From IMG/VR virus record IMGVR_UViG_3300017714_000019, positions 1 to 48,074 of that record: 48,074 nt of DNA; one strand, written 5' to 3'. Source of the DNA: a virus. A program made the translations under genes and the position numbers. How positions within the stretch are numbered: the stretch's first letter is position 1; the number at the start of each line of letters is the position of its first letter. The notes under the pieces were generated by a model, which saw only the letters and a list, made by a program, of their open reading frames with translations, was not told where the DNA came from and did not search any database. Positions 2,956 to 48,074 of the stretch are shown here, piece by piece.

Positions 2956-5900
2956 TATGCAGCAAGAGCGATAGCACGTAGATCTTGGATTACTGGTGAA
3001 TATGCCTGGTTTGCAGAAACAAACAGAATCTTAATTTGATACTGCTTGAACTTAATTCCATCAACCTCATACTCATAATCTCTGAATGTTTCAATATCAG
3101 TTGCTTCAGGAGTACCATCAGCAGGTTCTGGGAAATATTCAAATCCAAAGGTTTCGATTGAATCGTTAGAATCATCAGGAAGCACTCTATATAGTACCTT
3201 AATTTCAGTGTCTATCGGTCGGTTTGCCGTAAACAATAACTTGATGGCACCAGATGGATTAGTCAGTTCTGCAATCTTAGAAATATAGACTGCTTCATGA
3301 GGATCGCCCTTAGCAAGTCTAGCATTATCAGGATTAGACGGAGAGTTAATTCTATTACCAGTTGTAATGATAGAGAATCTATCAGTATCAATGATAGGAG
3401 ATAGATTATCTACTGTCGTTTCCATGGTAATATCCATTCTAAACGACTTAGCACCCGCCAGTTCATTCTGTTCGTTAATTTCCGAAGCGATTAGCATAGG
3501 AGTATCGAAGTAGTTGTCCTCTGATAGATCAAGATCAAAGAACTCACCAGTATTAACGAAAGAATTCTGAAGCATAGAAGTTCCATCATTGATAGATGTG
3601 CCAGAAATCATATTTGCACGAGCACTGATACTCGTCTTAGGCAGAATCATCGTAGTAATAGAAGGTGCGATGATGCTATACATGATGTTCTTAGTAGCAA
3701 AAATTTCTTCTCCACCACCAAGAATACCTTGAGAAGCAATCTTGCCCGTTTCAAGTTCATATGTATCTAGAGTTGGATTAACAATAGATGTATGAGTTTT
3801 ATTGATAAGAGTCAAAGGTACACCATCTAAGTTGTAGCATTCTACTACCGATTCACTAGCATGACTTACTCCAGTAGTACCAGAAGTTCCACGACCACTA
3901 GACTTAAGGGTAATAGTTTTACCATCAGAACTAATTGACTCATACTCCATAATTTCATCTTCAATCTTCAAGTATCCTGGATTATCAGTACCAATTGAAA
4001 GACCATTGACGATCTTATGGAATGCTGTTGCATCATTTACTGACAAAGACAAACCTGTTGCATCAACTGCAGCAGTCAATGTAGTGTCAGCAATCTCTGA
4101 GATTGCACCTTCAATAATGACATTATTGTCGGGGTCATGCATACCATGATTAGATTGATATACTCTGACGCGTTTTTGAGTGCTAGCAAAATTGATTGTA
4201 GCATCAATAAACGAATCTGAGATTGCAGAAGATTCAACAGCATCACCAGCGTAAGTAATTGCTACGCCAGTATTATGCGCTCTAGTAGTTCCTGAAGTTG
4301 CACCAGTAATATTCTCACCAGCAGTGAATGGTTTGGATGCATATCTAACATTCAAAACACCAGTTCCTGAATCATAACTAACTACTTCAGCAGTGGCACC
4401 AGATGTAGCACCTGTTACAACTTCACCATCAGTAGAACCAACAGGACCAGTAAATGATCCACTACCAGTAGTTGTGATAGCTGCAGTAGTTTTAGAAGAA
4501 ACCAAACGATAAGTAACATCACTACCAGTATCTTCACCTTGCTGGAATGTACCAGTAACATCCCTAACATTTAGAATTACACTACCTGAAGTAGTTGTGA
4601 CTGAAGCAATCGTACCCTCTGCCAAAGATGTCTTCTGATAAATTCTAGCACCAATAGTATAAGGTAGTGTTCCTGAATTCAAATTCAGAGACAATAGTGG
4701 ATTTAGAGTTTCGATAGCATCGATATCAAGATCATCAATACCTTCATTACCAACATCAAGATCTGAATTATTCAAGACAAGTCTACCAGCTACTCCTGGT
4801 GTAAACTTCGCTCTATAAATTTGGAACTTAAGATCTTCATACTGGTCAGCAGTCCAAGTAGATGCGTTCTGAGATTTAAAGAGAACACCAGCATAAGGTT
4901 GTTCGGAGATTGTTCGATCCCCTTCAATTGTTGTTTCACCCATTCTAGAGATCCAAACTTGATATTCATTAGAGTCTGAGAACAAAGCAAAACAATGTTC
5001 AATAGACTGAGGAATAAAGATTGGTGCCGAGAAGGTAAATCTAGTAGCAACCGCACCAGTTTCTGAGATGTTTACATCATCAGGTTCAACTGTAATATCA
5101 GCAAAAGGTAGGATGGTTGTGGTTGGATAACCATTCTCCATGGTTCTAATTTGCATATTGATAGGAACTCTCGCATCTTTACTACGGAAGTAAACATCAA
5201 CACTAGTTAAGAACATTCCACCCTTTGTACCAATAATAAAGGATTGTGCCAGGGGATCCCACCAACCAACTTGTCTGGTTGATGTTCTTGTAGAACGAAC
5301 TGTTCTACGTTGAGTAACTGTATCTCTAACAATGGCAGCATTTCTAACTGCAACGACATTTCTACGAATTCTACGCAGAGTACCAGATGCAGTAAATTCA
5401 ACTTCACCCGCTGATGCAACTGCACCTGGAATTCTAGAGTCCTTAGGTTCACTTGTCATACGGAGAGTATGTGTTCCAGTTCTCCAACGTGGATTGTTAT
5501 CTCTACGTGGTGGTGGAATAAAGAAGTTGCCTCTATACTTACCATATCTGTCAGTAATATGTCTACGACGTTGCACAACTGCGCGTGCGCCTGAAGTCAT
5601 ACCAATCAGAACTTCTCCGACCTGCATGTTTCCACGATAACGACCATTTTTTCTTCCACGGAAAGCAAGAGCAGCAACGTTATGGTTGATAACATTAGTA
5701 TTAGCAGAATATGATGAAGGCAGTGGTTCATCATCGTATGGGTTGTAAGCAACACCAGTAGTTGATCTGTACCAGTTATCAGGGCGAAGACACTTAAAGC
5801 GACACTTACTCCTACTACCTCTAATTGTCTCACCAGGTTGGAATGGTGTGGAATTAGTTCTATTATCTGTTGCTGGGTTCTTAATAACCTCAATAATTTT

Positions 5901-8900
5901 AGGTGTTACGTATTTTGTAATATTGTGCTTACCGAAGTAACAATAGAATCTAGTTCTAGGTTTCATCCTAGTTGCAGTGATTCTAATATTTCTAGACCTC
6001 ATCCAGAAGATTGCCGTTTGTGAGACAACACTATCACCCATATTACGACGTGTAATTCTAGGTACAACCCTAGTTCTAACACCTCGTCTAACTTGACGAC
6101 GGGTTACTCTTACTGTTCTCCTCTCTAGAGTTGCACGTCCTCTACCCCAAGCAGAACGCTGACCAGAGTTCCATCTTCTTCTACGAATATTTCTTCTTCC
6201 TCTCCATGTAGTTCTCCAAGAACCCCACTGAATAGGAGCAAAACCTCTTGCATTTGTGCGAAGTCTCCTACGAGTTGCTAAGAAGTTACCTTCAATTCTG
6301 GTAACTCTTGTAGGCAATCGTCTAGTGGATACCCAGTCATCAGAAGCAGGGAGACAAACAATGTTACCAATAAACGCAAAGACGTTGAATGGATTAACAT
6401 TTTCAACACGAGATGCATAAGGTTGATCGACAATGACTACCTCTTCATATGGCAAAGTTACCAGAGGTCTTACATCATCATCATCACCTTCTGCTTGATA
6501 GTCAACATTACTACTTAAAGTATCATTAATCTCAAGTGGGAAGTTGGTTGTATAGTGTGAGGCACGAGCAATGCCGTCTTCAAAATCCAATGCAGCATTA
6601 TAATCTTCATTGTCAGTATCAGACTTAGAATGATCTGTAAAGTCATCAACGATGAAACCATTTTTCAGTCTACTCTTACCATCAGCATCCAAAACTTCTG
6701 TGCTAATAGTATCAGACTCCAACATATTCAATGAAGTGTAATATTCAACCTGATCGAGTCTCTTCTCTAGCGCACCAATATCACGCATGGTAAAACGCTT
6801 ATTATCAGATGCTTGAATCTCAACATCTTCATCTGGATCGAAACCATAAGGTGCATATGTCAGGGTTGCCAGAAGCATACCTGTTTCTAGATCATCAGGT
6901 TCCTCAGGATTTTCTGATGGAAGACCTTTAACGACTTCAAATTCACCATCTTGATCGATAAAGATCTTATCGATTCTACCAATATACCAGGAGAAATCAC
7001 ATCTAAAGTTAGAGTTATCCTCAGGAATATCAAGAAGAGTTGCAGAAGGAGAACCTGATGTTGGGAATACTCTGGACTTAAAGTCTAGACTAGAACATGT
7101 AATAAATGCAGGATCTAAAAGTGTACCTGAACCATAATTGTAAAGATTGGGAATACCAGGACGGAAATCAAGATAATCTGAAAGGTATAGACCTTCATAG
7201 AATGGAACGTCTGAATAATCAATGTTCTGATATGATCCACCAGCAAAATAATCACCACCAGCACCATGGGTGAAGTAGTCCATGACTACCATCACTTTTC
7301 TGATTGGTTTAACAACTCCCTTTCTTCTTTTGAGTGTTGCTGTTCTATACATATAATTCGTTTGACCATTATACATGTCATAACGATCTGTGATTGGTTT
7401 AGAACCAGTAATAACAGATGTTGCCGAGTCATCAACAATAGCACTAATTGCTGTGTTGTTACTATCAAAACCAGTTAAAGTTTCGCCAATTTGGAATATG
7501 CCACTCAAGATGACCATACTTAGTTTTAAATTGGTAGAATTGAAATCAATAACTCTACCCGTTGCACCAGAAGTAGAACCAGTTACAATACTACCAGTTG
7601 CAAAGAAGACAGGTTCAACCAGAGTAACAGAAGGAACTACAGGATCATTTGCATCATCAGATTCGTAGATTTCATGAATCTTAAATCCATCAACTACACC
7701 AAGAGAGATCTCATCATCTTCAATTCTAGTACCAAAGATATTTGAATATGCAAGACCATAGAGTTGCTTATCTCTATTCTCGATAGTTCTGACTACTTTA
7801 TGGCACCACATTTGTTGAAGTGTCTTAGTCTTCTTCTCGGTAACATTTTTAGAGAGAGAAGCAGTAATCTTAACACTGGTAATATTTGCCAGGTTGGCAA
7901 TTGTAATTGTACTCTGTTCAGCATTTAGAGTAGTGTATCCAATATTAGCGGCATTAGAAATGCCTGTCAAAATGGGAACATTACTACCTACAGGATAAGT
8001 TCCATTAGTTCCAGCAAGAACTGTACAAGTTACATTTTCATTACTGATACTCTCGAACTGCTGGTTATCAGGAAGAGTCTCGGAGACAGAATCACTAGCA
8101 CCCGCTTGAACACTCTTAGCATCAAACGTTCTTCTTACAACACAAGATTCGTCAGAAATACTAGCAACATATGGTTTGGGCATAGGAGTCAGAAGATCTC
8201 CCTCCTCAATTGCCTCTAGTTTTGCTCTCTTTCTAATCAAACCATTATATGTTCCTGCATCAGGTGCCGCACTACCTGCACCAGGTGTTACATCAACTGT
8301 TTGCTCACCAAAATCAAAGATTGTACTAGGATTACCTGATGTTAGATTACTAGGATCAACTTTATCAACATCAACAAATTTATCAGCACTAAAGAAGATT
8401 CTATCGCCTGCCCTAAGGTCTCTGGCAAAATTAGAATTTAGACCCGTAATTTTTTCAGCAGAACCAGTTGCATCATATGTAAAGGTAGTACCTTGAATAG
8501 TTTGCTCATCCTTGAGTCCAAAATCTGCAGTAAATTCAATAACAGCACTGCCTTCATCTCTAGCAAGTATCTGCCTTGCATCGGATAGTTTATAAGGATA
8601 TACAATCTCAATAGTATCAAGATCAAGACCATCAACAGTTAGCATTTCACCCTGTTGGAATGATCCTTCAATTTCATAAACATCCATATGGTTTGCTGAT
8701 GAAATTGCATCAACAATATAACCTTTGGTTCCAGAAGTTTTACCAACAATTTGAGAACCAGCAACAACACTTTGACTAGTTGATAACTGAATTCTAGTGA
8801 ACATCTGAATATCAAACATATATGTTCGATATAAATTATCTGCTTGCGTAGCAAAAGAACCATCAGTTGCATCTACAAACTGATAACCTGCTGCTCTTGC

Positions 8901-17315: not shown

Positions 17316-20300
17316 AGAGTTCTGGATCAACCAATTCCTCGCCATAGTCAGCAAGGTTTGGTGCAGTCCAATCATCAGGGACACTAGTCTCAACATCGAT
17401 AGTAGAAACTTGATATCCAGAACCTGGTGCAGAAAGTTCAATACCAGCAACACCGATCAGTGGTACGATTTCTGCACCAGATCCTGTGATGGACGATGCA
17501 ACAATCGCGGGTTTGGAGGTAAATCCAGATCCACCAGCAGTGACTCTAACCGAGTCGATGAATTGAGAAGTGAGCGTGGTTGTTGCATCTGCATCTCTAC
17601 CAAAGACTGATCCAAGATAATCGAAGGTGATCAGCGAATTGGAAGATTCGATGATAGCAACTTCTCTATCCGAGGTCTCTCCCTGGATACTGATAAGGTC
17701 ACCCGCTTCGATAGAAGGAACAACTTCAGCAGCGTCAACGTCTGCTTCAGAACCAACGTAGGAGAATGCAACGAATGTAGAACCTACGCGAGGGATTTCT
17801 GAGAAGATGATTCTAGAACCAACAACTTCAAAACCAACACCAGGTTCCTGAATAACACCATTGAGCGAGACAATGATATTATTTTCAGGTCGAATCGTTG
17901 TGGACTGAACGCCATCCGTGAGCGTAAGTGAGTAGAACACATCATTACGCTTAAGGTTGAATGACTGACGCAAGGAATCAAACTCAAACGAGATATCATC
18001 CAGTTGTCTCAGTTTACCAACATAGAATCCTGTGAACGATGCTCCAGGTTCAGGTGCTTCTGTGAACTGAATTTGATCGGAGAACGCGGTGAATGCGTTA
18101 GTAGCACCAGGTGGTTGCAGAATACCATTGATGAAGATAAGAAGGTGTCCAGCAGGATCTGGAAGGTACTGAGTGCCATTACCAGTACTGAGTTTGAAGT
18201 TCGTAGTCGTACCATCAAATCCTCTGAAGAATCTCTTGACTCTTCCCTTGAGTACATCGCGATCGAGGATAATAGACTTATGTCCATTAGGTCCGACGAT
18301 GCCATCTTTTTCTGAGAATGTGCCGCGAATATCAGCAAGATAAAGTCTCTTAGTACCACCAATTGTCTGGATGTTTTGGATACGCCCAGAAGCAGCACCA
18401 GCGTTAGTAACAATCGTACTAATTGTTGCATAACCGACTGGGAAGTCGCCGCCGATGGTGCCATAATCACCAACAAAATCACCCAGAGTAAGTGACCCCT
18501 CAACCATCTTCACGTAAACATAGTTGTTATCAAGATCAACACCAGTGATAATGCCGTAGACATTACTGACCTGACCACCAGAGACAACTTTGTAAAGTCG
18601 ATTGCCTTCTGTGAAATTGTTAAGGACAACACCTTGAGAGGTAATGACTGATATCTGCAATCTCTGATGACCACTAGAACCAATACGATCACCAACACCA
18701 AGTTCTAAACCTGCATAACTTTGAAGGTCGAGATAAACTCTAGATGTACTTGGGTATACGACCGAAGTTGTCTCGAAGGTGCCCGTAAGACCTTCAGTAT
18801 CAACTGTCAACTTACCACCAGTATTTGCAAGAACTGCTGCATTATTGTTGAAGAGCGTGATAGGAGTTGCTGTATTACCGCTAGTATATCCCTTGAATGG
18901 AATATCGGTAATGAAAGTACCTCTGAAATCGATGATATGAATTCTATCTTCGATTGCACTAATTTGCGCGGTGGTAGTGTTTGTAGCACCCTCAATAGTG
19001 TCTGTGATTGCCCACGTACCTGCTGTTACAGCAACATCAAGATACTTGAAGTTTTCATCTTCATGGAACCCGTAAACAACGCCTGTGATTGCTGCATCAC
19101 CTTGCTTCTGAACGACTTCGTTCATTGTATAAGGACCATCAGTGATGTCACCATCAATTCGGAATCTCTTATAAACTTTAGCAATAAGACCCTCATTTAG
19201 CGTATTAGTCTTAAGTTCTGCATAACTTCCTGAGTAGGAACCATAGAAGTATTCAGTCTGAGCAATTCCACCTAGAAGTCCTGTTGGGATATTTCTAGTT
19301 CCATAGGTATATGTTGGAATTGTAATTCCACTATTATCACTAAAGGTATTGACATGATTGGTGTTACCCAGTTGCTCTTTTACAATACCCAACAGATATC
19401 TAATACTTCTTCTGATAGATTCTGATGTGTAGTCTGCAGCAGCAGTAGAATCGTAGAAGGTATATGTTGTGGTTTGAGGTGAAGGATTTGTCAAGGAGTT
19501 ATCAAGAGACTCCGACATCCAACCAATCATAGAATTAAGAATCAATTGCTTGATATTGTATTCAGTATTGGAGAAGAATGTCTCACCAGAAGCAGCAACA
19601 TATGGATCAAGTTCGCCCTTATTAAGTTTTGCACCCCAGAGATATATCCCATTACTACCAGTTCCAGTAAACGATTCTTGTCCAGAATTATTAAGAAGTT
19701 GGATTTTATGCTGTAGTGTAGAGAATCCAAAACCAAATTCGCCCGTGATATAAACACGATACCAACCATCACCATATGGAATCACACCAGCGCCATTATT
19801 AAAGATAGTCTCTACATCAAATGTGAGGTTATTAGAAGTATTAGCACCATTGATAGCAGAATTGACAATCGTAAGTGAATCACCTACATCATAAGCAATA
19901 CCATCATTATTAATAGTAACGACTGCTGTATTAGGAGCGTTCTCATGATCAATCGTGACATCAAAGGTTGCACCAGTACCGACTGCAGCACCAAGTGCTG
20001 ATAGACCCGTGTATGTGCCAGTCATTGCTGCAATGGTGGTGACATTGATGTTTGCAATTGTCTTAACACCCTCTTGCTCAACTCTGATAGCACCACCAGG
20101 TTGGAAGAGACTTCCCTTGGTTCCAACATCCATATTGAATGAGAAGAACGCCCTTTGCTCTCCCGCTGTGCCAGGATCAAGAATATATTCAAACTTGACT
20201 CTTTCATATTCTGCTTCTTTTACGAAGAACGATAAAGTGTACTTCTGAAGAGCAGTAATAGAACCAGTATCAAACGATTCTGTGCCAGTGTCAAATGTAA

Positions 20301-39256: not shown

Positions 39257-41356
39257 TTAGAAACAACTATTAGTGAGAGAACCTGAGTTATCGATGGGAG
39301 GAATAGTGATCAATGTGGGTCGTTGATCGAACTCTCCTGGCGTCAAACTATTTAGTGGTATGGTGGGAGGTGGAGTTGTGCCGATAGGGGCAACTGTAAT
39401 GTCTGGAGTTACGATATTGATAATTGTTCCAGGAGTTGTTGCAGGAATAGTTGCGTTATTTCTAGGAATGAAATTAATAGGAAGTATCATGTCTAATGGA
39501 AGTCCAGATCCAGGTGTTTCATCGACAATTGTGCCGATACCAGTGATAGCATCTGTAATAATAATATTGGCATTATCTGGGATATTAGATCCAGTACCGA
39601 TTAGATTTACAGGACCGAAACAAACTTGTCCTGTATCATAATTAACAGTGCCCGCAGCATTATCGGTGTATACCTTTTTGTTACCTGTATTATAGAACGT
39701 TCTCAAGAGTCCGTAACCATCATCTTCAAACTGCTGGTCTACACCAGGTCTATCATATGTTCTAAACTTGCCAGAGAGGATCACAGGTTCCTTATAGCAC
39801 TTCGTAGTGGTATTACCACCGCTACCATCACCATTGCCGTTGCCTGGATCACCATCTCCGCCGCCATCATCATCACCATCAGAACTAGGAGAACTATTAT
39901 ACAGACCAGAACCAATAGAAACACAATATGTGTTAGTTTGATTAGTTGCTGGTGAAATATACTTCAGAAGTGTAGTCTGGACAGAAACATCACTTATACA
40001 CTTATTTGCAAGTCCAATTGCTTTTTGGAAGGAGTTTGCTCTGAATGTGGAGTTGAAGTTATTAATCTCTGTTTGAATTGCCCAATCTTGAACAGAAGTC
40101 TGAATGTCAGTCTTAATACTAGAAGAGTTAGAACCGCATCCAGTATCATATTGAGCAAAAATCTTATTATAAATGTACATATCATCAGGATCTACGACGA
40201 TTGGGTCAATAGACGCCATCGCATATTTCCTCAAAAGACCAGAAACCTCTCTTTTAGTTGCTACGTTGAGATTAGTTCCAGTTTTTGTTTCAATTGCAAC
40301 ATATACTTTACCATATACAGGAGGATTTAATGAATCTCCCCCATATGCCACAACTGATGCAGCATTGTTGTATAGTTTTTTAGTTAAGATAGCATAATCT
40401 TGTGCTGTAACTGCTCGGTTTTGAGCAGAAAAGAATCTAGGTGCGCTATATTTGATTGATTCAATAGTTTCTGCACCTTTACCTTGCTGAGAATTCTCAA
40501 TAACAGTAATTTTAACGGAAGCAGGAGAGTATGTTCTGTTATTATTATCAATAACTTTACCAATAAATGAGAATGTCCTAATTTCATTAGCAGTCGGACC
40601 ATTCGTCACCATATATTCAAGATCAATAACTTCACCATCGTTCAAAGATCTACCAATAACACCATCACCAAATCTAAGTTGGTATCTCATATCTTCCGTT
40701 TCAAATAGGAAGTAGATACGAGTAGATGCATCGAGAGCAGTAATGTTATCAACTACATTATATAAATCGGATGAAGTCGAAGATTCGTTTGCTCTCACTC
40801 TCACTGATAGAGTAGTAGTGTCTACATTTTGAGCAGGAACGATATAATTTTGATTTGCAAATGTATTTACAACATAAGAGTAGTTAATTACATTTCCTTC
40901 ACGTATAACCAACTTATCAAAGGTTGCTATACCAGTTTGGGAATCAACAGTTGCAGTGACATTGTTTAGTACGTTCCAAACATAATTGCCACCAGTTGCT
41001 ATAGAACCCTTTTTGAGAACAACTGTACTTGGGTATGATCCATTTACAAGAGAAGTTTGAACTTCAATCTTAACACATGCCTTTGCAGTTGCAATAGATG
41101 TTGGAGTGTAGTTTAATAGTTTCGCAACTGCGACAACATTGTCTCTGACAGTTGAAGAATTTAGAAATACTTCATTCAGTGCCATGTTAGCATTGAACGA
41201 CGTATAGTACGTATTAAACGCCAGCATATCAACTAGATACGACAGGGTTGAACCATCAAAGTCGTAGTCTGTAAATTCTGATCGGGTTCTTAGATATGCT
41301 TTGATTGATGCCTTGATGTCATCAAAATCTAAAGCAGTTAGATTATTTGGTTGCAT
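39257..41356 (-). CDS. 6: Baseplate wedge subunit gp6
   Basis: The 699-aa product begins QPNNLTALDFDDIKASIKAYL and continues with SYLVDMLAFNTYYTSFNANM and NEVFLNSSTVRDNVVAVAKL, the conserved gp6 N-terminus of T4-like cyanophages. Central signatures are RYQLRFGDGVIGR and the RFFSAQNRAVTAQDY block. T4 gp6 has 660 residues; gp6 dimers close the inner baseplate ring around the hub. Residues ~488-515 form an acidic Gly/Asp linker (SDGDDDGGGDGDPGNGNG), and the last ~70 residues are Pro/Thr/Ile-rich, both unusual additions. The ATG overlaps the gp25 stop by one base (TAATG), coupling two proteins that work together. The giant gene begins four bases after its stop. Confidence 0.9.
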   Translation of the reverse strand: MQPNNLTALDFDDIKASIKAYLRTRSEFTDYDFDGSTLSYLVDMLAFNTYYTSFNANMALNEVFLNSSTVRDNVVAVAKLLNYTPTSIATAKACVKIEVQTSLVNGSYPSTVVLKKGSIATGGNYVWNVLNNVTATVDSQTGIATFDKLVIREGNVINYSYVVNTFANQNYIVPAQNVDTTTLSVRVRANESSTSSDLYNVVDNITALDASTRIYFLFETEDMRYQLRFGDGVIGRSLNDGEVIDLEYMVTNGPTANEIRTFSFIGKVIDNNNRTYSPASVKITVIENSQQGKGAETIESIKYSAPRFFSAQNRAVTAQDYAILTKKLYNNAASVVAYGGDSLNPPVYGKVYVAIETKTGTNLNVATKREVSGLLRKYAMASIDPIVVDPDDMYIYNKIFAQYDTGCGSNSSSIKTDIQTSVQDWAIQTEINNFNSTFRANSFQKAIGLANKCISDVSVQTTLLKYISPATNQTNTYCVSIGSGLYNSSPSSDGDDDGGGDGDPGNGNGDGSGGNTTTKCYKEPVILSGKFRTYDRPGVDQQFEDDGYGLLRTFYNTGNKKVYTDNAAGTVNYDTGQVCFGPVNLIGTGSNIPDNANIIITDAITGIGTIVDETPGSGLPLDMILPINFIPRNNATIPATTPGTIINIVTPDITVAPIGTTPPPTIPLNSLTPGEFDQRPTLITIPPIDNSGSLTNSCF

Positions 41357-41775
41357 TATTCAGGTCTCTGTAAAACAAACGTGATTGTTTCGACAATTGG
41401 TAACCCTACTATTCGATACTCAACGAAAATATTTAATTTGTTACCCTCATAGATTGGTGTAACAATAACTTTGGAGAGTTGTACTCTGGGTTCATACTGA
41501 TTAATTGTATTTATGATCTCATCCTTGACTGCATCTGCAGTAAAAGGATCCAGGGGTTCAAATAGTAAACTATTTACCCTAGATCCTTTGTTTGGTTGAA
41601 ATGGTTTTTCACCAGGAACGGTTAAAACTAAATTTTTAATTGCCTGTTTAATGGCGTTATCGTTACTTACGGATGATACATCATCAGTAAAAGGATTTTT
41701 CAACAAACCTACACTAATATCTTTAAATCCTTTAGATTTGGTAAATTGTTGTCCTGTTATCTCCTTTAACGCCAT
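41356..41775 (-). CDS. 25: Baseplate wedge subunit gp25
   Basis: At 139 aa it is close to T4 gp25 (132 aa), a lysozyme-like-fold protein that links wedge to sheath initiation. The family core is present: AIKQAIKNLVLTVPGEKPFQ, GSRVNSLLFEP, and the diagnostic EPR motif at residues 95-97 within NQYEPRVQL. The C-terminus has the strand pair NKLNIFVEYRI/ETITFVLQR. A late promoter lies 22 bases upstream, overlapping the previous stop codon. The stop shares a base with the gp6 start. Confidence 0.93.
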   Translation of the reverse strand: MALKEITGQQFTKSKGFKDISVGLLKNPFTDDVSSVSNDNAIKQAIKNLVLTVPGEKPFQPNKGSRVNSLLFEPLDPFTADAVKDEIINTINQYEPRVQLSKVIVTPIYEGNKLNIFVEYRIVGLPIVETITFVLQRPE

Positions 41776-41949: not shown

Positions 41950-42501
41950 TTAAACTCCTACAAATACATTTGGACTGCAACCACCAACCAAGGATAAACA
42001 TGGAAATGGTCCAGCACCCGTCATTGTTCCGAAAGGGTCACAAAATCTACCGAGTGGTCTTTTATTTACAAAGACAGTTTTAGAAGTAGCGTGTAAGACT
42101 CTAGGATGACCAACTTTCAACTCTCTTGGACTAGTAGCACCTAAGGTGCAATGCCATGCTGGTGTTGGTAATGTTACAAAACATTTATCAGATACTGAAG
42201 TCGTTGTGAACATTACAACCGTTGGATGTGGAATCAGCGCATCCTTATCGAGTATTGGAAACAACTTGTTAATTATAACATTCGTTATTGGAGGTGTCAA
42301 TGGGGTTTGGGGATGTGGTGCCCAAGTACATACAGGTTCATTGCTAATGACAGGCACCTTACTGATTGTTTCTGTTAGGGGTTGGTGTGGGCAATCGGGC
42401 AGCGTTCCTCCACCATGACCTGGATGAAATGTACACCCAAACCCCTTTCCATGCCCACTGCATGTGCCCATATACAATGCTGCTCCCAATATACTAGGCA
42501 T
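41950..42501 (-). CDS. PAAR-like baseplate spike tip protein (183 aa)
   Basis: The protein is rich in Gly, Pro, His and Cys. The N-terminus has SGHGKGFGCTFHPGHGGG and DCPHQP; the C-terminal half has GHPRVLHATSKTVFVNKRPLG, RFCDPFG and GGCSPNVFVG, matching the V-x-VNxRPx-R-x-D pattern of PAAR proteins. PAAR proteins bind zinc through His/Cys at the apex and sharpen the central spike (T4 gp5.4, type VI VgrG tips). At 183 aa it is longer than minimal PAAR (about 95 aa), with a Pro/Thr-rich middle. The ATG overlaps the stop of the 836-aa gene (TAATG). The gene 5 hub is not in the window. The fold assignment is moderately sure. Confidence 0.68.
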   Translation of the reverse strand: MPSILGAALYMGTCSGHGKGFGCTFHPGHGGGTLPDCPHQPLTETISKVPVISNEPVCTWAPHPQTPLTPPITNVIINKLFPILDKDALIPHPTVVMFTTTSVSDKCFVTLPTPAWHCTLGATSPRELKVGHPRVLHATSKTVFVNKRPLGRFCDPFGTMTGAGPFPCLSLVGGCSPNVFVGV

Positions 42502-45011
42502 TAGTTTGCATACCCCTCATCGTATGGATTACCATAAGCTTCTGTTGCCGCAGTTACTCTTGATGCTGATCCTGTTAGATTATTAAACATTGGAATAGTT
42601 CCTGTTGCAACCCAGTTTTGGCAACCAGGTCCTAAAAGTGGTGATAGTAAGTATGATCTAGTGATATTTTCAGAACTTCCATCAGGATTATTTGTTGTTT
42701 GATTCACAGGTGGTGAAACTACAGGAGATGGACATGTTGCAATGCCGCATCCAGTAGTTTCCATATTGCATTTTAGAGTCACATTGATGTCAGTTTTAGT
42801 TCTAGTATCAGGAACGTACTGTTTCATTAGATATTTAGTGTTTGTTGAGGCATATGGTAGGTTTGAAAGTGACCCAATACAAGTTTCGACTAAATTTTCG
42901 TCGTAATTTGCGATTTCTGGGACAACTTCTTGCGTTTGTCCGTACCATAAGTCCCTTCGAGACTGAATATCAGAGTCTCTTCCGTCATTCATGACCTTTT
43001 TGAAGTCAGTAGTCATATTTTCGATGTTATTCAGGTGATCATAGTCATATCTAACCGTATATTCAGCAACTAATGGGTCCATATCCTCTCTTTTGTTCAA
43101 TCTTTGCTGCACTACCTCATTTCTTTCCCTCGTAAAGTCCTTTTTAACGTCAATTTTTGCGGGACTTGTCGTAAGAATCATTTCTTGTGGCGTAGAATTC
43201 GATGTGCGCTTCATTGAACTGCGGATTTGTGGGTCTACATCGGGAATAGTACGCAATAAGTAGTCGTCAAGTTCATCTGAAGACGCTGCAGAGTACCCAG
43301 CATTCCGTATTGTTTCCGTTTTTTCCTTAAATTGGTTGAAAACCCAGAGAAATGGCGGAGTTGTTGAACTATAACCGCTACCTTGATCAATAATATTAAC
43401 ACCAGTAAGCACACCATCCGTAAAAATACCTACAACTCTTGCTTGTGTACCACCAGATGAGAAGGGTACATTGATAGTAAGGATAGGATCATCCTTAAGT
43501 TTATCCCAACCAGACCCTCCATCATTAATTGTAACCCCAGTTACCTGACCATTTGTAACTATACCCGTTGCATCGGGTTGAATTGACTCTGAAAATGTAT
43601 TAGGTGCTTCAGCATCTTGACTCACAGTCTGGAATTGTACAGATTTATTCCTAAATTCATACAATCCAATCAATTGTGCGCGGTCCTTAATACCAAACCC
43701 TGCTGAAACAGTTACAACATGACTACGATTTGAAGTATATTGACCATCTTTTGTGAAAACTGATCCCGATCCATCAAGATATACTACATGATACTTAAAG
43801 TTTTCAAGATCTGTATGGAATGTTCGTGTGATATTGTGTCCATTTAATGTATCACCAACACGAAGACGATCAAATCCAGTATCACCTTCAGTAACCTGTC
43901 GTGGTCCTACTGCAGTGATCTTAACATTCATAGTAAGTGTGACAACACTACTATCAAGAAGTGTTATATCATATGATAATTGATAAACCTCATTCACTGC
44001 ATACCCTGTTCCTGCTCCAACTATCTCAAGTACATTCCATCTAGTGCCACTGAATACCTGTGTGTCCTCATCATAGATTGGTGTAATCTGTACTTTAATC
44101 CTAAAACCTGTTTTAGTTGGTAAGGAATCCATTGTAAAGATATTAAAATCAAAAAATCCAGAGTCATCAACATCAGTCCATGGATTTTGTGGTGAATCAT
44201 ATGCTATACCATATGCATTTGAAGGGTCATATACATCTTGATACGTAGTACCATCATATGAAAATGAAAAATCAGTTACTCCATTAGGTATAGTTGTAGA
44301 AAATTGATTATATTCAAGTACTACTTTCGGACTATTAGTGTCAATAGCAAATAATGTTGGATGAGGACAATCTGCATCACCTGTATAATCTTGCTCATCA
44401 GAACTATAATCTAAGATCATCTCTGCTGGTACACATGGTACAGAACTACAGGGAATACATCTTGTCCCACTATCTTGTGTACTAGTTGATGTACCAGGTG
44501 TGTCAGGTACAGGTGGCGTTGCAGTAGGGTTTCCTGGTGTACTTGCACCTGTACTAGTGGTTACGCTATTCTCTTGCTCCAAGTAGTAACATGGGATACC
44601 AACAGTGCCGCCCCGACTTGAGGCATCATACAAATATGAAAACCATGCATCACTTAAAAGATAATCAAATGATAATTGAAAAGGTACATAAGCATAATAA
44701 TATGTGCCCTCACCTGCAAAAAATGAATATGCATTTGATCCAGCGCCTGGTGCTGATAGTTTTCCACAATGAGATGATGGTGGTGCATCATATGCTACAC
44801 TACTAGTCCCTCTATTAGAGTCTGGTGGTTCTACAAATACACTATCATACATGACCGCATTATCTTCACGATCTGGTATATTATAATTTGTGCCCCTTAT
44901 CTCGTATGGTGGATATTCGATGAATTCAACCGACGATCCACCTGTTGGCCTGTGGTTCGGTGAGCACGGCGGTGAAGCACCAAATTCATTATTTGGATCC
45001 TTGCATCCCAT
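42501..45011 (-). CDS. Large Cys-containing virion structural protein (836 aa)
   Basis: No named family recognised. The N-terminal ~200 residues are Pro/Ser/Tyr-rich with scattered Cys pairs (GCKDPNNEFG, SPPCSPNH, RCIPCSSVPCVP) and a Thr/Pro/Ser linker near 155-180. The middle is beta-rich and carries GAGTGYAVNEVYQLSYD, GGSGWDKL and DQGSGYSSTTPPFLWVF, the GSGY module found also in the giant, the 1,408-aa protein and gp8. Residues ~580-720 are charged and helical (RERNEVVQQRLNKREDMD). It is coupled to the PAAR-like gene by TAATG and overlaps the upstream 78-aa gene by 23 bases. Position next to PAAR and gp25 argues for a baseplate component. Confidence 0.85.
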   Translation of the reverse strand: MGCKDPNNEFGASPPCSPNHRPTGGSSVEFIEYPPYEIRGTNYNIPDREDNAVMYDSVFVEPPDSNRGTSSVAYDAPPSSHCGKLSAPGAGSNAYSFFAGEGTYYYAYVPFQLSFDYLLSDAWFSYLYDASSRGGTVGIPCYYLEQENSVTTSTGASTPGNPTATPPVPDTPGTSTSTQDSGTRCIPCSSVPCVPAEMILDYSSDEQDYTGDADCPHPTLFAIDTNSPKVVLEYNQFSTTIPNGVTDFSFSYDGTTYQDVYDPSNAYGIAYDSPQNPWTDVDDSGFFDFNIFTMDSLPTKTGFRIKVQITPIYDEDTQVFSGTRWNVLEIVGAGTGYAVNEVYQLSYDITLLDSSVVTLTMNVKITAVGPRQVTEGDTGFDRLRVGDTLNGHNITRTFHTDLENFKYHVVYLDGSGSVFTKDGQYTSNRSHVVTVSAGFGIKDRAQLIGLYEFRNKSVQFQTVSQDAEAPNTFSESIQPDATGIVTNGQVTGVTINDGGSGWDKLKDDPILTINVPFSSGGTQARVVGIFTDGVLTGVNIIDQGSGYSSTTPPFLWVFNQFKEKTETIRNAGYSAASSDELDDYLLRTIPDVDPQIRSSMKRTSNSTPQEMILTTSPAKIDVKKDFTRERNEVVQQRLNKREDMDPLVAEYTVRYDYDHLNNIENMTTDFKKVMNDGRDSDIQSRRDLWYGQTQEVVPEIANYDENLVETCIGSLSNLPYASTNTKYLMKQYVPDTRTKTDINVTLKCNMETTGCGIATCPSPVVSPPVNQTTNNPDGSSENITRSYLLSPLLGPGCQNWVATGTIPMFNNLTGSASRVTAATEAYGNPYDEGYAN

Positions 45012-45225
45012 TCTCTAATACCTCTAGTCTCTTGTAGATTAAATCGTAATTCTCTTTTATATTTAAGTATTCTTCAGTCTCTCTTGGACGATACATTACC
45101 TTATCTGGTGTTGGTATATTCTGTACATACTTCTCAATGTGCTCAACTCTCTCCCCTAACTTAACTACAATCCCTACTAACATCTCATATGCTGTAGTTA
45201 ATTCCCTAAACTCTTCCTCATTCAT
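44989..45225 (-). CDS. Coiled-coil protein (78 aa), unknown
   Basis: Unrecognised. Two helical stretches flank a Pro-containing linker: FRELTTAYEMLVGIVVKLGE, then VEHIEKYVQ, IPTPDKV, and NLIKENYDLIYKRLEVLE-like heptads. The ATG at 45225 is used; a TTG at 45234 is also open but is only two bases from the AAGGAG at 45237-45242, whereas the ATG is 11 bases away. It overlaps the AbrB-like gene by eight bases and the 836-aa gene by 23, so it bridges the small-gene block and the virion module. It may belong functionally to either. Confidence 0.72.
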   Translation of the reverse strand: MNEEEFRELTTAYEMLVGIVVKLGERVEHIEKYVQNIPTPDKVMYRPRETEEYLNIKENYDLIYKRLEVLENGMQGSK

Positions 45226-45391
45226 CAGTTGCAATTCTCCTTAATGTGAATGCTGTGTTGTCTTCTGACATATCATACTCTAATTCGGTCCCAATGTCCC
45301 ATCCCAATTCCTCACATACTTCATGGGGAATATTAAGAATTAAATCACCAAAATCATCCTCTTCTAAAATTGTTGTGAATCTTTGAGACAT
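45218..45391 (-). CDS. AbrB/MazE-like swapped-hairpin protein (57 aa)
   Basis: Translation gives MSQRFTTILEEDDFGDLILN, then IPHEVCEELGWDIGTELEYD, then NTAFTLRRIATDE. The pattern strand - D-L-x-L-x-IP-x-E-V-x-E-E-LGW-x-x-G-T-E-L - strand is the SpoVT/AbrB (MazE) DNA-binding hairpin; similar short proteins recur in T4-like cyanophages. AbrB-type proteins dimerise and bind AT-rich DNA as transition-state regulators or antitoxins. No toxin partner is evident next to it. It starts three bases after the 72-aa gene and overlaps the 78-aa gene by eight bases, so it is inside an operon driven by the promoter at 45799-45828. Confidence 0.78.
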   Translation of the reverse strand: MSQRFTTILEEDDFGDLILNIPHEVCEELGWDIGTELEYDMSEDNTAFTLRRIATDE

Positions 45392-45394
45392 AAC

Positions 45395-45613
45395 TTACAT
45401 ACGATTAATTACCTGAGGGTTATCTGACAGATGTTCTGCTTTCCACTCAACCCATAGTGTATATAGATCTTCTACAACTTGAGATGCATACGCAGAGGCA
45501 TAATAGTCTGCACACTCATACATCCTAGGGTCTAGAAACGACTCTAACCTTATCAATTGCTCAATTGCCCATACACGAGTCTCTTGGCGCTCTACGCGAG
45601 TCTTAGCATCCAT
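45395..45613 (-). CDS. Unknown small protein (72 aa)
   Basis: Unrecognised. The sequence is mainly helical and charged (TRVERQETRVWAIEQLIRLE) with an aromatic middle (YECADYYASAYASQ, LYTLWVEWKAEH). No membrane segment. GAGG six bases before the ATG is a clear ribosome-binding site. It is the first gene after a 185-base leader containing an AT-rich palindrome, and it is followed after three bases by the AbrB-like gene. Confidence 0.75.
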   Translation of the reverse strand: MDAKTRVERQETRVWAIEQLIRLESFLDPRMYECADYYASAYASQVVEDLYTLWVEWKAEHLSDNPQVINRM

Positions 45614-45798
45614 TTTTTACCTCAGAAATTTTTTTAGATATGCCTTCAAGTATTATTGAATAATATCTCAAGGGTCTGGGAACCTTTGTAGGTTAGGGTA
45701 GTGGCTTGTTTTATATTTACGGGGGCCAATATAACTGCCTATATGACATTTAGCACTGCCTCTAAGTGTTACTCACAGGTCCTCCGATTACCTCTGCT
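45614..45798 (-). promoter_or_regulatory. Long leader with AT-rich palindrome before the AbrB-like operon
   Basis: No coding frame of note. The 185 bases between the -10 element and the first ATG contain a perfect 15-base AT palindrome TATTATT-G-AATAATA at 45651-45665 and a small AACCT/AGGTT inverted repeat near 45691. The palindrome lies 38 bases upstream of the 72-aa gene start and could be an operator. Confidence 0.4.
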
Positions 45799-45828
45799 AT
45801 TATACACTAACCTCTGCTGATTTGTCAA
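45799..45828 (-). promoter_or_regulatory. Sigma70-type promoter for the 72-aa/AbrB-like operon
   Basis: The minus strand reads TTGACA (45823-45828), an 18-base spacer, and TATAAT (45799-45804): both consensus hexamers are perfect. It overlaps the 3' end of the 67-aa gene and points into the 45614-45798 leader. Confidence 0.8.
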
Positions 45829-46003
45829 CTATCTCCCAGTACCATCCGATAGTCTTGATGTAATCAAACGTAGACATTCTCGGAGTATTTGGGTAACTAT
45901 CTCCCCGAGAGTTTCTAACACCATCGACATACTTCTCAAGGTCATAGACACTTAAGAATGTTGCTCTAAGTGTCTCTGTGTTGTCGTAGATAATGTATTG
46001 CAT
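45800..46003 (-). CDS. Unknown small protein (67 aa)
   Basis: Unrecognised. It begins MQYIIYDNTETLRATFLSVY and has DLEKYVDGVRNSRGD and FDYIKTIGWYWEIVD, suggesting a compact alpha/beta fold rich in aromatics. No membrane segment or known motif. It has its own sigma70-type promoter about 45 bases upstream and no recognisable Shine-Dalgarno sequence. The next promoter is embedded in its last codons. Probably an early host-takeover gene by location and promoter class, which is inference. Confidence 0.72.
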   Translation of the reverse strand: MQYIIYDNTETLRATFLSVYDLEKYVDGVRNSRGDSYPNTPRMSTFDYIKTIGWYWEIVDKSAEVSV

Positions 46004-46047
46004 AAGTCTTGAAGATACTAGAGGTGTTTCTGAACCCTTGCAGTGTT

Positions 46048-46076
46048 ATTGTACCATCTATTTGATAGTTTGTCAA
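46048..46076 (-). promoter_or_regulatory. Sigma70-type promoter for the 67-aa gene
   Basis: The minus strand reads TTGACA (46071-46076), a 17-base spacer, TACAAT (46048-46053). Predicted transcript start is near 46041, giving a leader of about 38 bases to the ATG at 46003. Confidence 0.8.
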
Positions 46077-46077
46077 G

Positions 46078-46104
46078 TGCCCCTGTATGACACTCAGAGG
46101 GGCA
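46078..46104 (-). other. Hairpin between the 86-aa gene and the next promoter
   Basis: TGCCCCT (46078-46084) and AGGGGCA (46098-46104) form a seven-pair stem with a 13-base loop. No T-tract follows on the minus strand, so it is not a classic terminator. It abuts the -35 element at 46071-46076 and could be an attenuating hairpin or an operator. The rest of 46105-46227 holds no gene that I can support. Confidence 0.45.
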
Positions 46105-46227
46105 ATGATAAGCAATGGTGATGTGAGTATTCTCCGAGTGATTTAGAGGGGTTGACATCTGTTAGAGAACGTGCTAAGACTACAATTAGTGGAGACATTT
46201 AGAGAGGTATTAAACACACATAATAGT

Positions 46228-46488
46228 TTATTTAATGTTTTCCACAACTTCCGCAATATCTGTGGAAAACTTATCTTTAGGGAGATAATCATTGTTTACT
46301 ACGTGTTGCCACTGATTAGGGTAGACACATAAACAAACTTGACGGATTGCAGATTTAGCATGTTCCGCTTCTGCACTAGGTTTCTCATACTCTCTAATAC
46401 AAATGGTGATATAATCATCTGAGATGAAGTTAACATAACCATGGAAGTCTTGGTAGGTAACTATTTGTCCTTTAGTGAAATGCTTCAT
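46228..46488 (-). CDS. Conserved cyanophage small protein (86 aa)
   Basis: The start MKHFTKGQIVTYQDFHGYVN and the following FISDDYITICIREYEKPS recall a family found repeatedly in T4-like cyanophages; function unknown. The pattern of short strands (GQIVTY, GYVNFIS, YITICI, QVCLCVYPNQW) suggests a small SH3-like beta barrel, which is my inference. It has two Cys in CLCV. There is no Shine-Dalgarno sequence; instead a TTTTCCACA box ends one base before the ATG. Two more such boxes lie in its last codons. The hairpin at 46078 follows downstream. Confidence 0.82.
   Translation of the reverse strand: MKHFTKGQIVTYQDFHGYVNFISDDYITICIREYEKPSAEAEHAKSAIRQVCLCVYPNQWQHVVNNDYLPKDKFSTDIAEVVENIK
46238..46269. 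promoter_or_regulatory. Inverted pair of cyanobacterial-type DnaA boxes
   Basis: TTTTCCACA occurs at 46238-46246 and its reverse complement TGTGGAAAA at 46261-46269, with arms of ten bases (GTTTTCCACA) and a 14-base spacer. TTTTCCACA is the DnaA box reported for cyanobacterial origins. The pair lies inside the 3' end of the 86-aa gene. Confidence 0.45.
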
Positions 46489-46500
46489 CTGTGGAAAACT
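46487..46500. promoter_or_regulatory. Third DnaA-like box at the start codon of the 86-aa gene
   Basis: ATCTGTGGAAAACT is a 14-base direct repeat of 46258-46271. On the minus strand TTTTCCACA ends one base before the ATG at 46488, where a ribosome-binding site would be expected. Confidence 0.45.
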
Positions 46501-46522
46501 CTATGGAATTGTTATGTATTAG

Positions 46523-46663
46523 TTAGAAGGATATTTTGAATTCATTCTTTACATCAGGACGCATGAAGTCTGCTGAGGTTTGTAATGAATCAGCAATGAA
46601 AGTTCTTGCATTGTCGTTAGTGTATACTAGAGCAGCAATGAGACAGATAGCAATGAATTTCAT
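46523..46663 (-). CDS. Tiny membrane/exported protein (46 aa), conserved in cyanophages
   Basis: Starts MKFIAICLIAALVYTNDNAR and continues TFIADSLQTSADFMRP. Residues 2-14 are hydrophobic after a single Lys, like a short membrane anchor or lipoprotein-less signal sequence. I recognise this short family from T4-like cyanophages; function unknown. The start at 46663 is preferred to an upstream in-frame start at 46717, because that one would lie inside the terminator of the gene before. No Shine-Dalgarno sequence is visible. Confidence 0.78.
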   Translation of the reverse strand: MKFIAICLIAALVYTNDNARTFIADSLQTSADFMRPDVKNEFKISF

Positions 46664-46690
46664 AAAATGATGAGTAAAAGAATGATTGAA

Positions 46691-46717
46691 TAAAAGCGGG
46701 CATAGATTGATGCCCAC
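46691..46717 (-). terminator. Rho-independent terminator after the 113-aa gene
   Basis: On the minus strand GTGGGCAT-CAATCT-ATGCCCGC forms an eight-pair stem (one G-U) with a six-base loop, followed by TTTTATT. It starts 16 bases after the stop at 46734. Confidence 0.8.
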
Positions 46718-46733
46718 TCCTTCTTAGTTTTAA

Positions 46734-47075
46734 TCATGCGAAGACATAACCATTAGAGAATTCTTCTGTAGTGAATACTTTCTTATCACCCAATTGTCCA
46801 GTGAACTTTCTTACAAACCACTTGTAATTCTTTTGGAATACACCTTCACCAGCGATGCAGAACTCATCACATAAGGCGTTCAATCGTGATTTGGTTGTAT
46901 TAGACTGCCAACCACCATCATAGATTGTCATGCTATCTTCATCGATAGTTGCAATTTGATTGCCGTGGAGATAGATGAAACTAACGCCTTCAATCGTGAT
47001 CACCTGAGTGTTACCTGATTTCCAATCTTGGTTTGCTTGGATAGCAGCGTTCATTTGAGTTTCGATCTTACGCAT
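46734..47075 (-). CDS. Conserved cyanophage protein (113 aa), unknown function
   Basis: Begins MRKIETQMNAAIQANQDWKS and contains VSFIYLHGNQIATIDE, IYDGGWQSNTTKSRLNALCD and KNYKWFVRKF. I recognise the MRKIExQMNxAI family as frequent in cyanophages and other marine phages, with no assigned role. The fold looks alpha/beta: an N-terminal helix, a beta meander with a WQSNTTKSRLN turn, then basic strands. It is a single-gene unit with its own sigma70-type promoter and terminator. The 5' leader lacks a Shine-Dalgarno and is pyrimidine-rich. Confidence 0.85.
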   Translation of the reverse strand: MRKIETQMNAAIQANQDWKSGNTQVITIEGVSFIYLHGNQIATIDEDSMTIYDGGWQSNTTKSRLNALCDEFCIAGEGVFQKNYKWFVRKFTGQLGDKKVFTTEEFSNGYVFA

Positions 47076-47121
47076 GATGAGAGAGAAGAGGTTTTAGCGG
47101 TTTCGTTTCCCGCTTGTCTGT

Positions 47122-47149
47122 ATTGTAGCAGTTTTGGGAGCGTTGCCAA
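47122..47149 (-). promoter_or_regulatory. Sigma70-type promoter for the 113-aa gene
   Basis: The minus strand reads TTGGCA (47144-47149), a 16-base spacer and TACAAT (47122-47127). The predicted start near 47115 leaves a leader of about 40 bases. Confidence 0.65.
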
Positions 47150-47185
47150 CGTGCTGACCCGATATTGGGTACAGTTGTCCGATTG

Positions 47186-47317
47186 TCACATGGCATCGAT
47201 CTGGCGTTGGATCTTTTCGTTCCTTTCGTTAATTGTATTCACCAAGGACGAATCTAACAATCCAATGAGTAAGTTAGCACCACAGATAACGATGATAGCA
47301 GCAAGAGCAATACGCAT
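47186..47317 (-). CDS. Tiny single-span membrane protein (43 aa)
   Basis: The frame from ATG 47317 to TGA 47186 reads MRIALAAIIVICGANLLIGL, then LDSSLVNTINERNEKIQRQI and DAM. Residues 3-21 form one hydrophobic helix; the rest is a charged amphipathic tail. It fills the gap between two accepted genes in the common orientation, which supports it despite its size. No Shine-Dalgarno; the start region CTTTCATCATGCGTA nearly equals that of the 113-aa gene. Function unknown; small membrane proteins near lysis or host-interaction genes are common in phages. Confidence 0.65.
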   Translation of the reverse strand: MRIALAAIIVICGANLLIGLLDSSLVNTINERNEKIQRQIDAM

Positions 47318-47356
47318 GATGAAAGAGTTAGATAAGGAACGGAATTAGGTTAGAGT

Positions 47357-47536
47357 TTACATACCATTCATATACTCATGTAACTCAGCAAAGTATTGCT
47401 CTTCAGTGTCAAATGAACGACCATGAATAACACATGGGAACGTATGCTTTTGAAACATAGTGGAAGCGACTTGGCAGTCTTGCTTATCATAACCCATTTC
47501 GATTAGGGTATCAACGTAAGGGTTGGAAGTAGTCAT
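47357..47536 (-). CDS. Small protein with UBA-like helix pattern (59 aa)
   Basis: From ATG 47536 the product starts MTTSNPYVDTLIEMGYDKQD and continues CQVASTMFQKHTFPCVIHG and SFDTEEQYFAELHEYMNG. Residues 7-25 fit the first two helices of a UBA domain around the MGY loop, but this may be coincidence. Longer starts are open at 47596 (eight-base overlap with the previous stop) and 47638; neither has a clear ribosome-binding site, and the N-terminal extension looks less protein-like. The three Cys/His residues CVIH and C25-like positions form no recognised metal site. Confidence 0.65.
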   Translation of the reverse strand: MTTSNPYVDTLIEMGYDKQDCQVASTMFQKHTFPCVIHGRSFDTEEQYFAELHEYMNGM

Positions 47537-47588
47537 AGGTTTGTATAAAGAAAGGTTTGAGAGTTGTGTGAGAGAGTCGTTAAACAGA

Positions 47589-47795
47589 TCAATCATTTGC
47601 TGCTTCACAATATACATCATAGAAGCAATCAAAGGCATCTAAATCACCTGCAAAAGAGTTGATTTGTGCCTGGTCACATACCCAATCAAACGCCATATCA
47701 ACGTCGGCACCTGTTTCCATCACAAAGGATTGCAGACCGCGAAGTGCATCGACGAATTTGGAGTTGTTGAGAAGCATTGGATTTGTTTTGTTCAT
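47589..47795 (-). CDS. Unknown acidic protein (68 aa)
   Basis: Unrecognised. The sequence (MNKTNPMLLNNSKFVDALRG, FVMETGADVDMAFDWVCDQA, DLDAFDCFYDVYCEAAND) is helical and acidic with three Cys, and could be a small helix bundle. Its ATG overlaps the stop of the upstream gene by four bases (ATGA), a standard translational-coupling arrangement. Acidic small proteins are often phage inhibitors of host enzymes, but nothing here identifies a target. Confidence 0.72.
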   Translation of the reverse strand: MNKTNPMLLNNSKFVDALRGLQSFVMETGADVDMAFDWVCDQAQINSFAGDLDAFDCFYDVYCEAAND

Positions 47796-48074
47796 GATTG
47801 TATTATTGCAGATTTTGGGGTGATTTTCAAGGGTTTTTGTGCCAGTTCCCCGCCTGGTTTTCTGGATAAAAGATCCCAGATCATTTCGTTCATCTCATCA
47901 GCATCGATCTCAGGATCATTCCATGCCACGCCGTCTTCAGTCTTGCCTAGCATCCGACCGATCTGCCCATCTGTCATGCAACGCACGAACTTATCCCATG
48001 GGGTCTCCAGACCCTCGCGATAGATCACACACGCCTTTGCAGTGTTGTAAAGGAACTCATCGTTTGAGATCCAC
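47792..48074 (-). CDS. Unknown protein, 5' end outside window (partial)
   Basis: The frame is open to the right edge: WISNDEFLYNTAKACVIYRE precedes GLETPWDKFVRCM, DGQIGRMLGKTEDGVAWND, EMNEMIWDLLSRKPGG and ends at TGA 47792. A GTG at 48028 could start a 78-aa version, but the coding pattern continues upstream without a stop, so the true start is probably outside. No family recognised. It is coupled to the 68-aa gene by a four-base overlap. Confidence 0.68.
   Translation of the reverse strand, partial: WISNDEFLYNTAKACVIYREGLETPWDKFVRCMTDGQIGRMLGKTEDGVAWNDPEIDADEMNEMIWDLLSRKPGGELAQKPLKITPKSAIIQS

Follow-up and report, generated by a model that had tools for sequence, protein, structure and literature searches.

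A window of viral DNA (IMG/VR record IMGVR_UViG_3300017714_000019, positions 1 to 48,074, analysed here over its whole length of 48,074 nucleotides) carries a cluster of exact copies of the cyanobacterial DnaA box TTTTCCACA around a small gene of 86 amino acids, which raises the question of what purpose such boxes serve in a phage genome. The original prediction, made from the sequence of the window, held that they could be a phage replication start, a sponge for host DnaA or an operator by which DnaA controls the 86-aa gene. The window, whose genes include gp6, gp25, PAAR, wedge and small-gene families as in T4-like cyanomyoviruses, is a portion of the genome of such a phage (Kyanoviridae), its nearest isolates being S-CAM8, S-RIM12 and Syn33 (~80% identity). 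An ORF of 7313 aa (17311-39252, - strand) probably encodes a giant tail protein.

Exact DnaA boxes and a core element in the window

The three exact TTTTCCACA boxes first reported, starting at 46238 (+), 46261 (-) and 46490 (-) and spanning 261 bp, were verified at these coordinates, and the last of them indeed lies one base from the ATG (46488, - strand) of the 86-aa gene (Table 1). The estimate that chance would yield fewer than one exact box in the window also holds (0.82 +/- 0.88 computed); four are present, a count reached in 1 of 100 shuffles, the one at 44760 (+) having been overlooked. One-mismatch boxes show no enrichment in the window (12 versus 19.6 expected), so that the clustering is limited to the exact motif. 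By themselves, these window statistics are weak evidence for a box cluster; judged by the comparative evidence presented below, the cluster is non-random, and the earlier observation of it was correct and understated.

Table 1. Features of the box locus and its surroundings in the window
Feature	Position	Strand	Remarks
DnaA box A, exact TTTTCCACA	46490..46498	-	core offset -801
DnaA box B, exact TTTTCCACA, first inverted-pair arm	46261..46269	-	core offset -572
DnaA box C, exact TTTTCCACA, second inverted-pair arm	46238..46246	+	core offset -549
DnaA box D, exact TTTTCCACA, within baseplate wedge gene	44760..44768	+	core offset +929
Inverted pair GTTTTCCACA-N14-TGTGGAAAAC	46237..46270	.	arms 23 bp start to start
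Core element CCTAACCTACAAAGGT	45682..45697	-	single copy per genome
Extended core CACTACCCTAACCTACAAAGGTTCCC, noncoding, near-invariant	45678-45703	-	sequence conservation
AT-rich stretch GTAAATATAAAAC just upstream of core	45708..45720	-	sequence
113-aa gene, PF23790 Kyano_Gp96 / T4-GC_637	46734..47075	-	family match
86-aa gene, T4-GC_383 / phrog_522	46228..46488	-	family match
67-aa gene, phrog_718, between box pair and core	45800..46003	-	family match
Baseplate wedge subunit, phrog_719, first long gene downstream of box locus	42501..45011	-	family match
PAAR protein, T4 gp5.4-like	41950..42501	-	family match
gp25 baseplate wedge	41356..41775	-	family match
gp6 baseplate wedge	39257..41356	-	family match

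A further element accompanies the boxes: the noncoding stretch that holds the core, located 550-570 bp downstream of the box pair, is conserved to a degree exceeding that of the pair. The extended core is immediately preceded by TAAATATAAAA, the AAAA at -15 to -12 upstream of the core is conserved at 89-98%, and the GTAAATATAAAAC stretch resembles a T4-type late promoter. Of 21 isolate genomes, 17 contain CCTAACCTACAAAGGT as a single copy; the two host genomes WH7803 and RCC307 have none. The stretch around the core is matched by 283 phage records, and in every locus with gp25 in reach (82/82) the core precedes gp25 and shares its strand. A search of window positions 44900-48074 against Rfam gave no credible match. 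The core was also considered as an RNA structure and rejected as such: it holds only an invariant 4-bp stem without covariation and so looks like a DNA site, probably one read by a phage protein.

Conservation of the locus in isolates and environmental phages

Relatives of the window were collected through the 86-aa gene (T4-GC_383, phrog_522), a route blind to the boxes, and DNA similarity supplied a few more. Syn33, S-CAM8, S-CAM22, S-IOM18, S-MbCM100, S-RS29, S-RIM2 and S-RIM8 have the three boxes in exact form at near-constant spacing, and the offset of box A from the core is kept (-799 to -804) in Syn33, S-CAM8, S-CAM22, S-IOM18, S-RS29 and S-RIM2. The inverted pair is retained in ACG-2014b, S-RIM14 and Syn30 and appears with wider spacing and an overlapping second box in S-SM1, Syn19 and S-SSM5, while Syn9 has a box pair at 52565/52589. 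The locus is placed at about 46.6-47.3 kb in Syn33, 33.3-34.1 kb in S-IOM18 and 52.6-53.5 kb in Syn9. Box D has counterparts at a similar offset in ACG-2014b, S-RIM8 and S-SM1 (+937 to +958 from the core in relatives). Exact boxes total 2 to 8 per isolate genome (155-217 kb); in the 17 isolate genomes with a core, which are related by descent and so not independent samples, 51 of 86 exact boxes fall within 1.5 kb of it versus 1.49 expected. Their recurrent offsets in these 17 genomes are near -800, -571, -548 and about +940, and the isolates sharing boxes at fixed core offsets come from many genera. P-HM2, P-RSM6 and ACG-2014f have neither the box locus nor the core, and S-TIM4 has the core and a T4-GC_383 homologue (3773-3912 of the stretch examined) with no exact boxes nearby. 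In S-PM2, a genome without the core, three exact boxes lie in 34 bp (19231-19264) over two annotated tRNA genes. Conservation in related phages, proposed as a check on the boxes, is thus borne out: close relatives that keep the gene also keep the boxes, which supports a function for the boxes and not a link to the gene.

The proposal that the boxes are a DnaA operator for the 86-aa gene is not supported by this comparison, in which each is found in the absence of the other. The inverted pair overlaps the final codons of the gene in the window, and roughly half of the relatives have it outside the gene; S-MbCM100 and S-RS29 keep the pair unaltered although their gene stops before it. In many phages the arrays adjoin gp25 and no homologue of the gene was found nearby; conversely, S-TIM4, ACG-2014f, S-PM2 and P-HM2 have the gene but no boxes at the site. 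Distinct pairs followed downstream by the core number 46, and in 21 of them a stop codon lies 0-4 codons ahead of the pair; the six box codons are invariant in 18 full-length genes (major-codon share 1.00 versus 0.67 at other amino-acid-conserved codons). This set of pairs and genes was chosen partly by pair presence, and the isolates provide the cleaner comparison. Since the boxes persist past stop codons and elsewhere without the gene, an operator function is unlikely, and the 86-aa gene appears to be a neighbour of the boxes rather than their purpose.

When IMG/VR was scanned for exact boxes in inverted pairs, at least 120 stretches matched. Among the matches listed, inverted pairs lie upstream of gp25/gp6 in 52 of 52 loci with the gene in reach and direct pairs in 19 of 19, that is, 71 of 71 for both arrangements. 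Controls behave differently: among the matches listed, gp25/gp6 was found in 0 of 120 stretches for the reversed motif of the same composition and in 1 of 120 for pairs of the E. coli-type TTATCCACA, a motif that is itself essentially absent at the site in both the pair scan and the loci chosen by gp25. The control scan is dominated by the motif ACACCTTTT-N10-AAAAGGTGT at spacing 19 (75 pairs), which resembles a shared repressor operator. The gp25 proteins of all IMG/VR pair sets form 39 clusters at 70% identity and 12 at 50%, and the distance from array to gp25 ranges from 2.2 to 9.1 kb with differing genes in between. PF23790 Kyano_Gp96 / T4-GC_637 is the most frequent named neighbour of box arrays in other phages. 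Flanking the pairs are 130 copies of the exact box and at most 11 of any one-mismatch variant. A viral contig of GC 0.60 without T4-like hits carries seven exact boxes in 116 bp (6064-6179), likely the origin of another phage or plasmid.

The reverse approach, in which loci were chosen by gp25, used subsets of the gp25 alignment, the first alignment being too diverse for scanning. It yielded 84 exact boxes 3-7 kb upstream of gp25 and none between -2 and +8 kb. A box cluster is found upstream in 12 of 21 Kyano-type loci and downstream in 0 of 48; the corresponding counts for a second, more distant gp25 set are 3 of 13 and 0 of 36. The remaining loci with enough upstream DNA (9/21 Kyano-type, 10/13 other) have no exact-box cluster, and variant boxes in these cluster-negative loci give no consistent substitute motif.

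Start-to-start spacings in inverted and direct pairs are mostly 11-15, 20-25 and 31-35. Over 56 dereplicated arrays of 2-8 boxes each, selected for a close pair and not for phase or place, the best spacing period is 10.5 bp (R 0.87, n=45 for inverted pairs; R 0.83, n=54 for direct pairs) and everted pairs show comparable phasing; the boxes are phased on the DNA helix, with its repeat of ~10.5 bp. AT content near the arrays is 0.61-0.67 versus 0.61-0.65 in the surroundings, with no marked AT-rich unwinding element on average, and local AT-rich runs occur near the arrays of Kyanoviridae. GC skew (raw and two-arc; Syn33, S-IOM18, Syn9 and S-RIM8) is uninformative, with no break at the locus in these genomes, whose genes lie mostly on one strand.

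Candidate readers and functions of the boxes

TTTTCCACA is the DnaA box of Synechococcus elongatus PCC 7942, Anabaena PCC 7120 and Cyanothece ATCC 51142, and binding of DnaA to it in vitro has been reported for Cyanothece (PMC4674748, PMC3480399). Clusters of the exact motif are what a DnaA origin is expected to contain, by a consensus that comes from other cyanobacteria and may differ in WH7803. This host encodes a DnaA in which domain IV retains DHTTV, a motif present in structure 1J1V of E. coli domain IV. Its thrC-dnaN region holds only the imperfect boxes TTTTCCACG and TTTTCCCCA, so that the preference of host DnaA is assumed from other cyanobacteria. Away from dnaN, WH7803 has an inverted exact pair 44 bp apart (1819368/1819412) and RCC307 a direct exact pair 33 bp apart (474410/474443); with spacings that are multiples of 11, these are possible unrecognised host DnaA sites.

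A phage-encoded protein other than DnaA might read the same 9-mer, as initiator or regulator. Such a reader would suit the arrays found in T4-likes of unidentified hosts (GC 0.30-0.45) and a core that is phage-specific; we nevertheless think it unlikely, as the boxes are identical to the documented cyanobacterial DnaA consensus, every one-mismatch variant is rare and no protein with PF08299 (DnaA domain IV) was found in 21 phage genomes. It is similarly improbable that the locus is a regulatory element in which DnaA, or DnaA roadblocks, would govern transcription into the baseplate operon, for instance as an early/late switch, with the core as promoter or leader. The arrangement of everything on one strand upstream of gp25, the AT-rich late-promoter-like stretch before the core and the position of box A beside the start codon in many relatives would all agree with it, but the distance to gp25 and the genes in between vary, the boxes lie within, between and after genes, and boxes and 86-aa gene each occur in the absence of the other.

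The sponge, too, must be judged quite unlikely. Boxes titrating host DnaA as phage copies build up would halt host replication, like datA in E. coli, and the clusters of exact, high-affinity-type boxes would be apt for this; exact boxes number only 14 in the 2.37-Mb genome of WH7803, a total that the boxes of a few dozen phage genomes would exceed. However, a sponge has no need of a single-copy core alongside and would have only 2-8 boxes per phage genome at its disposal, and lytic T4-likes are able to shut down the host chromosome or break it down. A hairpin in the RNA of the 86-aa gene, serving as terminator, attenuator or processing site, was rejected as the main explanation of the inverted pair and is very improbable: folding of its 9-11 bp stem is more favourable than in shuffled sequences (z about -2.4 to -3.0), but direct and everted pairs, unable to form such a hairpin, phase comparably, the arms never covary and remain exactly TTTTCCACA, and no T-run follows the pair. 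As for chance or coding constraint, the box count of the window by itself is just mildly unusual; the recurrence at fixed offsets, the stop codons before the pair, the codon invariance and the constant position upstream of gp25 refute this explanation, which retains a negligible probability.

Boxes and core together are best read as a conserved non-coding cis-acting locus, apparently composed of two to eight exact boxes in helical register and a single-copy 16-bp core upstream of the gp25-gp6 operon. We hold, with moderate confidence, that this locus is most likely the primary phage replication origin, acting via host DnaA. Of the functions originally proposed, a replication start is the best supported, given the fixed site, the phased boxes, the single-copy core, the lack of motA and asiA in cyanomyoviruses (PMC2984593) and the single theta origin predicted for Syn9 (as cited in PMC2984593). 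Syn9 carries the box-core locus, and on the simplest reading the locus would be the predicted Syn9-type theta origin, which host DnaA would open. The host protein, bound to the phased boxes, would melt adjacent DNA, where the phage helicase/primase (gp41/gp61) would be loaded for a first, theta-type round, to be followed by recombination-dependent replication. From sequence comparison we infer each part of this scheme, namely DnaA binding, unwinding, helicase loading, origin activity and the part played by the core.

Relation to known origins and implications for T4-like phages

Outside the phages, E. coli datA/DARS provide examples of DnaA-box clusters that are not origins and affect DnaA supply; unlike the phage locus, they are chromosomal. 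The closest parallel is cyanobacterial oriC, with its clusters of TTTTCCACA in non-coding DNA (PMC3480399, PMC4674748), from which the phage locus differs in not lying beside dnaN, in having an extra invariant core but no known unwinding element, and in being a candidate origin only. T4 has several origins, of which oriF and oriG use MotA-dependent R-loops without DnaA (PMC3016281). These are early origins of a T4-type replication system, as proposed for the phage locus, but their function depends on MotA middle promoters together with an unwinding element downstream, and cyanomyoviruses are without motA (PMC2984593). T4 oriE, a repeat-bearing origin distinct from the R-loop origins (PMC3016281), is likewise located upstream of the PAAR (5.4)/gp6 genes; in contrast to the phage locus, with its 9-bp boxes at variable phased spacings, it sits in gene 5 and has evenly spaced 12-nt iterons that are not DnaA boxes. 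These iterons were rejected as homologues, the repeats detected at that T4 site being in-frame 24-bp coding repeats of gene 5. One such in-frame repeat lies near oriE at T4 79402-79569, and the published oriE 'iterons' may be gene 5 coding repeats. No mapped cyanomyovirus replication origin was found in the open-licence literature, nor anything relevant there on cyanophages and DnaA or DnaA boxes; the association may have been noticed earlier elsewhere.

We tentatively propose that marine T4-likes, comprising the cyanophages and several distant lineages, might share an undescribed origin type made of phased host-DnaA boxes and a phage-specific 16-bp core, in a syntenic position before gp25-gp6. 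The locus offers a precise site in 17 sequenced isolates, several of them grown on Synechococcus WH7803. If the proposal is true, the shared origin type would stand in place of T4's MotA/R-loop origins and couple lytic replication to the host initiator, and T4-type phages would be able to switch between R-loop and DnaA-based initiation. Cyanomyoviruses are among the most abundant viruses of the ocean, and the activity of cyanobacterial DnaA follows light and the cell cycle; phages replicating in this way would depend on host DnaA, which could bear on the dependence of infection on light and growth state.
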